A DNA stretch of 29,803 bases from positions 1 to 29,803 of IMG/VR virus record IMGVR_UViG_3300033153_002238; one strand, 5' to 3'. Source of the DNA: a virus. Below, piece after piece: positions 8,279-9,787 of this stretch; the first letter of the stretch is position 1; the number at the start of each line of letters is the position of its first letter. The notes under the pieces are model-generated. The model did no database searches and was not told where the DNA came from. It was given only the letters and a program-made list of their open reading frames with translations. A program made the position numbers and the translations under genes.

Positions 8279-8485
8279 ATGGTGAAACAACCACTTGAGC
8301 GAGAGTTTTATTCCATTACTGAATTCATTGAACTCACCGGCCTGTCCCGGCAGGGTGTCTGGATGGCGGTTAAAGAGGGCCGCATCAAGTCATCCAGGGT
8401 TGGAAGGAAGTACCTTATCCATCGGAGTGTTTTGGACGAGGTGAAAGTTAACGGCATTGGTGAAAAAGGCATTGCCAAAGATTGA
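8279..8485 (+). CDS. Excisionase-like / MerR-type helix-turn-helix protein
   Basis: 68 residues, nearly all one winged-helix DNA-binding domain: YSITEFIELTGLSRQGVWMA (helix-turn-helix) followed by KEGRIKSSRVGRKYLIHRSVLDE, the wing and final helix of the HTH_17/excisionase family. AAAGGAA precedes the ATG. Members serve as excisionases, small-terminase-like proteins or transcription regulators. Because there is no integrase in the window, a regulator or origin-related role next to the replication genes is as likely as excision. Confidence 0.72.
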   Translation: MVKQPLEREFYSITEFIELTGLSRQGVWMAVKEGRIKSSRVGRKYLIHRSVLDEVKVNGIGEKGIAKD

Positions 8486-8515: not shown

Positions 8516-8580
8516 CCGGGTAAGCTCCGGAACCAATGGGCAGATTGGCCGGGCGGGGGTTTCTCCAGGTACCCCCGCCC
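8516..8580 (+). promoter_or_regulatory. Structured leader of the replication gene (three hairpins)
   Basis: Three inverted repeats follow one another: CCGG/CCGG (8516-8519, 8527-8530), CCAAT/ATTGG (8533-8537, 8544-8548), and a perfect 10-bp pair GGGCGGGGGT/ACCCCCGCCC (8551-8560, 8571-8580; 10-base loop). No T-run follows the last, so a simple terminator is unlikely. It ends 9 bases before the GGAGG of the initiator gene and could limit its expression. Confidence 0.5.
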
Positions 8581-8600
8581 ACAAACCTTGGAGGCTTAGA

Positions 8601-9368
8601 TTGCAGTTCTTCCGTATACAAAAATGGGGCAAGTTTCAACACTACGACAAGCCCCGACCGCCTTGGATTAAAATCTACACGTCCATCAATGATTCAGATA
8701 CAGACTGGCGGTGCCTGCTTGACCATGAGCTAGGCCAGTTGATGCGCCTGTCTGCTTATGCCGCGCTGCATGAAAACACACTGCCGCTCAACGCAGAATA
8801 CCTTGAAGCAGACCTTGAACTAGACCAGAAGTTAGACCTTGGCAAGTTCGCTAAGTTGGGGATTATTAAGGTATTTCCAGACAAGTCTAGTTGTTTGTCT
8901 AGAGAAAAGTCTAGAGTTTTGTCTAGGAAATCGCCTAAGAAAAAAAAGGCTCTCCTAGATCAGAGTTCAGAGTTCAGAGTATCAGAGGGTAGAGATCAGA
9001 GTAAGAAGAAAGAATCTATGTCGGGCAAGCCCTCCGGTGATGGCCTCAAAAATAAATTAAAACAGGATGCTGCAGAAGTTCTGGAGTACTTAAACCAAGC
9101 TACGGGCAGAGCATTTTTAAAGACTGGCAATATTGTGGCCTGCCTAAAGCGGGAGAAGTGCGGAATTGTAGACTGCAAGCTGGTGATTGATCATAAGATC
9201 AAGGAATGGGGCAGTGACCCTGAAATGATCAAGCACCTTGACGCCACAACCCCATGGAGGAAAGCGCACTTCTCTGACTATCTGGACCAAGCAAGAGCCG
9301 GAGAAGCAACCACGGGTCACGATAGCAAGTCAGCCAGAGATGCAAGAATCTCAAGACTAAAGGACTAG
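8601..9368 (+). CDS. Phage replication initiator / replisome organiser
   Basis: Probable origin-binding protein that recruits the helicase loader. I start at TTG 8601 because GGAGG sits 6 bases before it at 8590-8594; the longer frame from ATG 8499 would translate the hairpin leader. N-terminal region: FRIQKWGKFQHY...PPWIKIYTSIN, then a winged-helix-like domain to about residue 95. The middle (about 95-140) is Ser/Lys-rich and disordered, and its DNA carries the iterons. C-terminal region: VLEYLNQATGRAF...IDHKIKEW...TPWRKAHFSDYLDQA, the pattern of the conserved phage C-terminal domain (Phg_2220_C type). 255 residues. The loader-like gene follows by 2 bases. The family is inferred from pattern. 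Confidence 0.75.
   Translation: MQFFRIQKWGKFQHYDKPRPPWIKIYTSINDSDTDWRCLLDHELGQLMRLSAYAALHENTLPLNAEYLEADLELDQKLDLGKFAKLGIIKVFPDKSSCLSREKSRVLSRKSPKKKKALLDQSSEFRVSEGRDQSKKKESMSGKPSGDGLKNKLKQDAAEVLEYLNQATGRAFLKTGNIVACLKREKCGIVDCKLVIDHKIKEWGSDPEMIKHLDATTPWRKAHFSDYLDQARAGEATTGHDSKSARDARISRLKD
8885..8938 (+). repeat. 12-bp iterons inside the initiator gene; candidate replication origin
   Basis: GTCTAG occurs at 8885, 8897, 8909 and 8921, exactly 12 bases apart, with a weaker GCCTAA at 8933 in the same register. A run of seven A (8940-8946) follows. At protein level the repeat is four codons, giving LSRE-KSRV-LSRK. Iterons inside the initiator gene next to an A-rich tract are the arrangement of the lambda O/ori region. 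Confidence 0.6.
8960..9001 (+). repeat. Second direct-repeat set next to the iterons
   Basis: CAGAGT starts at 8960, 8967, 8974 and 8996, with CAGAGG at 8982; the first three are exactly 7 bases apart. They lie just beyond the A-rich tract following the GTCTAG iterons and in the same linker-coding part of the initiator gene. Confidence 0.55.
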
Positions 9369-9370
9369 AA

Positions 9371-9787
9371 ATGAACAAGCACGAATATGACCTAGAGTAC
9401 ACAAACCTGGCTAATTATTTCCAAGCAAGGGACAACCCAGCAAAGTATGACTTGTGGTGGGACAGGATGAAACACCTTTCAATAACTGCATTTAGAAAAG
9501 CCTGTACCATTTGTATTGAAAATGGCAGGTACTTCCCAACGCTTGGAGAAATCAAAAGGCTGGCGTACGACAACAGGCTGCAAAGCGAAATTTACACCAA
9601 CGAGAAAGACCAACTTAAAATCAGCGAATCAGAGGCGGCAATGGGGAAAGAGCTGTTTCCGCTGTTCCTTGATTACCTGAATAAAAAAACATCCAGACCA
9701 GAATGGATAGAACAGATGAAATATTTTGCAGACAAGCACGGGCATGGAGAAGTAATGAGAAGGAGCATCCATGAACATCTTGGATAA
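9371..9787 (+). CDS. Helicase-loader-like protein (G39P-type)
   Basis: 138 residues. The N-terminal half has the pattern of phage helicase loaders/inhibitors like SPP1 G39P: YDLWWDRMKHLSITAFRKAC...NGRYFPTLGEIKRLA, with the conserved FPxxxEI element near residues 54-60. The C-terminal half is helical and basic. It starts two bases after the initiator gene, the normal initiator-loader order. No replicative helicase is encoded in the window, so it would load the host helicase. Family call by pattern only. Confidence 0.6.
   Translation: MNKHEYDLEYTNLANYFQARDNPAKYDLWWDRMKHLSITAFRKACTICIENGRYFPTLGEIKRLAYDNRLQSEIYTNEKDQLKISESEAAMGKELFPLFLDYLNKKTSRPEWIEQMKYFADKHGHGEVMRRSIHEHLG

Follow-up and report, generated by a model that had tools for sequence, protein, structure and literature searches.

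The viral genome segment examined here (the window, meaning the whole 29,803-nucleotide stretch of DNA that was analysed) carries a cluster of short direct repeats inside a gene that appears to encode a replication initiator. This arrangement raises the question of whether the repeats are a product of the amino acid sequence encoded there, or whether the same nucleotides also mark the place where the phage begins to copy its DNA. Our analysis indicates that nucleotides 8885-9020 very probably constitute a replication origin of the phage, located in the part of its initiator gene that encodes the protein's linker.

The repeat array and its host gene

A previous sequence-only reading of this DNA described four GTCTAG hexamers at exact 12-bp spacing plus a fifth, degenerate copy in register, and all five are present (Table 1). 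The run of A nucleotides that follows was reported as seven and is actually eight. The four CAGAGT copies of the second repeat family were also correctly recognized, but each is located one base further on than the positions given (8960, 8967, 8974 and 8996), and a CAGAGG variant is present among them at 8983. There are no copies of GTCTAG on the + strand of the window beyond those at 8885, 8897, 8909 and 8921, and CTAGAC occurs in the whole window only at 8820 and 14206. The 12-mers of the array are self-complementary at 6-10 of 12 positions, four of which are contributed by the CTAG core alone.

Table 1. Coordinates of features at the putative origin and in the adjoining gene.
Feature	Position	Strand	Basis or remark
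Putative initiator gene, 255 aa, TTG start, repeats in linker	8601..9368	+	ORF, PF09524, PHROG 428
N-terminal domain, PPWIKLY family, helix-turn-helix-like topology	8601..8880	+	AlphaFold2, family alignments, tree
Repeat 1, GTCTAG	8885..8890	+	Within 12-mer AAGTCTAGTTGT
Repeat 2, GTCTAG	8897..8902	+	12-mer TTGTCTAGAGAA, self-complementary 10/12
Repeat 3, GTCTAG	8909..8914	+	12-mer AAGTCTAGAGTT, self-complementary 10/12
Repeat 4, GTCTAG	8921..8926	+	
Degenerate repeat 5, GCCTAA, in register	8933..8938	+	Matches GTCTAG at 4/6
Purine-rich low-stability tract, candidate unwinding element	8937..9020	+	69% purine, 62% AT
A8 run	8940..8947	+	
Second repeat family, CAGAGT (8961, 8968, 8975, 8997)	8961..9002	+	Counterpart of relatives' (CAGAGA)n tracts
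ATGTCGGGCAAGCCCTC, like relatives' hairpin element (PBR31 GTCGGGCAAGCCCGAC)	9018..9034	+	Stem degraded
138-aa protein, possible helicase loader, next gene	9371..9787	+	Position; PHROG 2289, tblastn (weak)

The claim that such exact spacing exceeds what Lys and Ser codons would demand is borne out by synonymous-codon shuffling of the initiator gene. At least four GTCTAG copies appear in only 2 of 20,000 shuffles and at least four CAGAGT copies in 53 of 20,000, while an array of at least four copies of any hexamer at a constant spacing of 7-30 was never generated in 3,000. Likewise, 100 windows of 29.8 kb simulated with a first-order Markov model yielded no hexamer array of at least four copies. 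Within the real window, the only regular hexamer arrays of at least three copies are the GTCTAG array and an overlapping TCAGAG/CAGAGT array. The best 80-bp segments within 8885-9020 rank in the top 0.4% of the window for purine content and in the top 0.06% for low stability. The hairpin-like element that follows is not counted as evidence for this site because it is degraded in the window. A change in GC skew at 8.9 kb had been suggested as a check, but skew tracks the direction of the genes and does not shift at that position, and we judged the measure uninformative.

The protein encoded by the host gene matches PHROG 428 'replication initiation protein' (7.3e-12), and its C-terminal domain corresponds to Phg_2220_C (PF09524; 4.9e-9, 36.6 bits versus a Pfam cutoff of 27), whereas the score for this domain falls under the NCBIfam TIGR02220 cutoff. 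AlphaFold2 predicts a fold with confidence for most of residues 1 to ~93 (block means 74-97) and with moderate confidence for the C-terminal part. The array begins in codon 95, and pLDDT falls below 50 for residues 108-143, in agreement with the proposal that the cluster is located in a disordered linker between two folded domains. When modelled alone, the N-domain (mean pLDDT 88.7) exhibits a helix-turn-helix-like order of elements. Foldseek and VIA-align comparisons with solved structures yielded no firm match for the whole initiator model or for the N-domain alone, and for this reason we infer, rather than assign, a DNA-binding function for this domain. A perfect 10-bp inverted repeat (GGGCGGGGGT...ACCCCCGCCC) is also present at 8551-8580, 20 bp upstream of the TTG start. 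The RNA fold of 8540-8610 has a z value of -2.85, and this element, which has no T-tail, possibly controls initiator translation.

Repeat arrays among relatives of the initiator

Direct searches with the window protein recovered few relatives, and therefore an alignment of the N-domain was needed. Searches with this alignment gave 80 loci in IMG/VR, taken from 385 confirmed relatives, and 11 in bacterial genomes, and a second alignment added more. About ten phage records of an annotated collection carry the domain, and the N-domain of the window protein has no match among plasmids. Limnohabitans phage DC33 and Iodobacter phage PhiPLPE are examples of relatives that have been cultured. Relatives share a common layout composed of the N-domain, short direct repeats, a CAGAGA-type purine-rich tract and a variable C-domain. 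Among 99 non-redundant N-domain genes (window included), 88 carry the tract. In array typing (motif length 6, threshold 0.78, periods 10-13), 54 of the 99 have a significant array just before the tract, with 50 at 11 bp, three at 10 bp and the window alone at 12 bp; the same test finds no significant regular array in the other 45. The sequence-only reading had named as adverse the case of relatives that keep the protein and lose the repeats. Instead, most relatives keep repeats at the same place, with a clade-specific sequence and usually with 11-bp spacing.

Whole-gene scans reveal a significant 11-bp period (p<0.01) in 32 of 78 genes, compared to none of 53 other open reading frames from the same loci. 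Periods of 13, 17 and 19 are significant in only 2-4 genes. Raised counts are also seen at even periods, among them 8, 10 and 12 (24-26 genes), and we attribute these to the purine tract. Periodicity is maximal ~64-93 amino acids after the PPW motif, and when the analysis is restricted to linkers, the excess over shuffles is found at 11 bp and at twice that spacing (22).

Two repeat types dominate among relatives, both with 11-bp spacing: one resembling TGCTAGCA and the other resembling GATATCA. Family linkers contain 60 copies of GATATC versus 12 expected, 71 of GCTAGC versus 8.5 expected, and 185 of GAGACA versus 52 expected. Because 11 is not a multiple of three, GATATC is read in all three codon frames (18/18/24), and so protein repeats provide no explanation. 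Judged from these counts, the excess of GATATC and GCTAGC shows a constraint that acts at the level of DNA.

The type of repeat also tracks the phylogeny of the N-domain. The GATATC type (B type) requires four changes on the N-domain tree versus a shuffled mean of 24.0, and the A type requires seven versus 31.1, with none of 500 shuffles as low in either case. This tree has few well-supported forks, and kinship of near relatives alone would give some clustering. Related C-parts are paired with both main repeat types in 57 pairs. The simplest reading of these sequence comparisons is that repeat recognition resides in the N-domain and that C-parts can be exchanged.

The window itself is an outlier in this family by virtue of its 12-bp GTCTAG form. 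No relatives bearing the same GTCTAG repeats were found, and a search of IMG/VR for GTCTAG-N6 triplets gave many arrays but, among the matches listed, none near the initiator family (HMM). The arrays inspected from that search consist for the most part of simple coding or microsatellite-like sequence, and we consequently rejected GTCTAG itself as a hallmark. The window protein occupies a long branch near L011, L248 and L211, with its exact placement unsure. These neighbours lack the two common repeat types, and a distinct repeat sequence in the window is in keeping with this. In L011, the N-domain relative of highest identity, the repeats at 1942-2053 belong to another family, of GCGCTACACA type and spaced by 45 bp. 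GTCTAG is also observed where array and tract meet in the linkers of L031, L080, L024 and further family members, for example within TTGTCTAGAG(A/G) (13 copies in 10 genes, the window's four included, versus 2.8 expected), and the window repeat may be derived from this junction element.

Several other variations were observed. Four relatives (L047, L052, L067 and L242) have no regular array by the typing test and carry, where the repeats would be, linker sequence that by eye resembles an HNH endonuclease, which could reflect invasion of the origin by a homing endonuclease. In L012 (1489-2163) the tract is reversed, as (TCTGTC)n coding SVSVSV, which suggests that the strand of the tract can flip. 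Hairpins of varied sequence occur 70 nucleotides after the tract in some family genes (e.g. GTCCGGAAAAAGTTCCGGAC in L057, and also L215, L075 and L090), and stems of at least 7 are present downstream of the tract in 18 of 85 relatives versus 3.7 expected.

Genes that follow the initiator provide a further clue. In relatives, the next genes include ones for DnaB (L016, L265, L238), IstB/DnaC-like proteins (L018, L266, L043), a Toprim primase (L038) and lambda P-like loaders (L017, L248), and 26 of 78 next open reading frames, picked mechanically, contain a Walker A motif. The product of the gene that follows in the window matches PHROG 2289 'helicase loader' weakly (E=0.0079), and tblastn weakly matches it to a gene annotated as a replisome organizer (E=0.3).

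Known in-gene origins and competing explanations

Origins embedded in initiator genes have precedents. In phage lambda, dimers of O bind iterons within gene O and open an adjacent purine-asymmetric, AT-rich region (PMC5043065). The lambda iterons are annotated at codons 117-145 of O. As in lambda, the repeats of the window follow the N-domain, occupy the inter-domain linker and adjoin a purine-asymmetric region that, judging from composition and stability, should open easily. The lambda loader gene is downstream of O, and the gene after the initiator in the window is a weak candidate for such a role. However, lambda repeats are 18-19 bp long, spaced by 20-24 bp and located beside an AT-rich tract, whereas spacing is 12 bp in the window and 11 bp in relatives, and the tract is of the CAGAGT/CAGAGA type. 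Homology with lambda O was rejected, given that hhalign of a 31-sequence alignment against the single lambda O sequence returned a probability of 0.2% (E 0.37). In phage SPP1, oriL lies in initiator gene 38, where gp38 binds repeats, and loader gp39 and helicase gp40 are needed (PMC6316719). The resemblance to oriL is one of layout, with direct repeats and an unwinding region inside the initiator gene (PMC6316719), and SPP1 has a second origin, oriR, of which no equivalent is seen in the window. Iteron plasmids (P1, RK2, pSC101) place helically phased, initiator-bound direct repeats beside an easily melted region, but those iterons are bound by monomers with help from DnaA (PMC5043065), and the window repeats differ from them in lying inside a gene and, for some of the 12-mers, in being near-palindromic. 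By analogy, the best reading is that the window site would work like the in-gene origins of lambda and SPP1.

Arrays of palindromic sites would also suit a repressor, and an excisionase-type helix-turn-helix gene is present upstream at 8279-8485. The repeats might serve to regulate transcription, for example by autorepression, as sites for the initiator itself or a different regulator. We consider this improbable, because the array is inside the gene, ~285 nucleotides from its start, consensus promoter matches nearby are weak, the purine tract nearly always follows the array, and replication genes adjoin it in many relatives. Even less probable is that the DNA has no role and that the repeats record a low-complexity protein linker or a tandem coding duplication (24-nt or 22-nt repeats). 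The 12-bp repeats of the window keep the reading frame and could also represent a 24-nt unit that was duplicated (83% identity), and the simple coding repeats that make up most of the GTCTAG arrays inspected among the listed IMG/VR matches lend this idea some weight. However, synonymous shuffles do not reproduce the array, its cores are identical while the spacers differ, and the 11-bp arrays of relatives pass through all three frames. Packaging, partition or recombination sites may also be repeat arrays, but such a function is very unlikely here because the repeat sequence co-varies with the N-domain of its host gene and the setting in relatives is replication rather than packaging.

We favor the origin interpretation because the window's only regular hexamer arrays exceed the effects of codon choice and coincide with its extremes of low stability and purine asymmetry, because relatives keep an array at the same point with a significant 11-bp period, because repeat type follows the N-domain while C-parts are swapped, and because DnaB, DnaC/IstB-like, Toprim and P-like loader genes are among the neighbours of relatives. 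The earlier comparison with the lambda origin thus gains support from the repeats of relatives, the strand-asymmetric tract and the frequent helicase or loader neighbours. Counting against the interpretation are the absence of a relative with the same GTCTAG repeats, the in-frame 12-bp spacing seen only here among significant arrays, the unsure long branch of the window protein, the weakly loader-like next gene, the lack of a GC-skew change at 8.9 kb, the 45 family genes in which array typing detects no significant regular array, and the want of a firm structural match for the N-domain.

If the origin functions by analogy with lambda O and SPP1 gp38/gp39/gp40, the initiator N-domain would bind the GTCTAG repeats, the near-palindromic 12-mers probably being occupied by dimers. 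With several molecules bound, the DNA might come under strain and the purine-rich tract next to the repeats might open. A loader, for which the product of the next gene is a possible candidate, could then place the helicase on the exposed strand. Replication would start after helicase loading.

A candidate class of phage replicators

We lean towards the view that this locus represents a large class of phage replicators that is known mainly from metagenomes and seems not to have been described before. Its members would combine initiators bearing the PPWIKLY N-domain with clade-specific palindromic arrays in their own genes (TGCTAGCA, TGATATCA and, in the window, GTCTAG) at 11-12 bp, a strand-asymmetric CAGAGA-type tract, sometimes a hairpin, and exchangeable C-domains that link to different helicase-loading partners. 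We found no description of such arrays in the open-access literature searched, and the records of these phages and prophages that we have seen carry no annotated origin. If this view is correct, sequence alone would be enough to locate the origin in the uncultured phages of this large family and in some prophages. Moreover, since the same DNA would serve as both codons and origin, the repeat sequence and the DNA-binding domain must then change together, and the family would provide naturally matched pairs of protein and DNA site in which the evolution of specificity could be studied.
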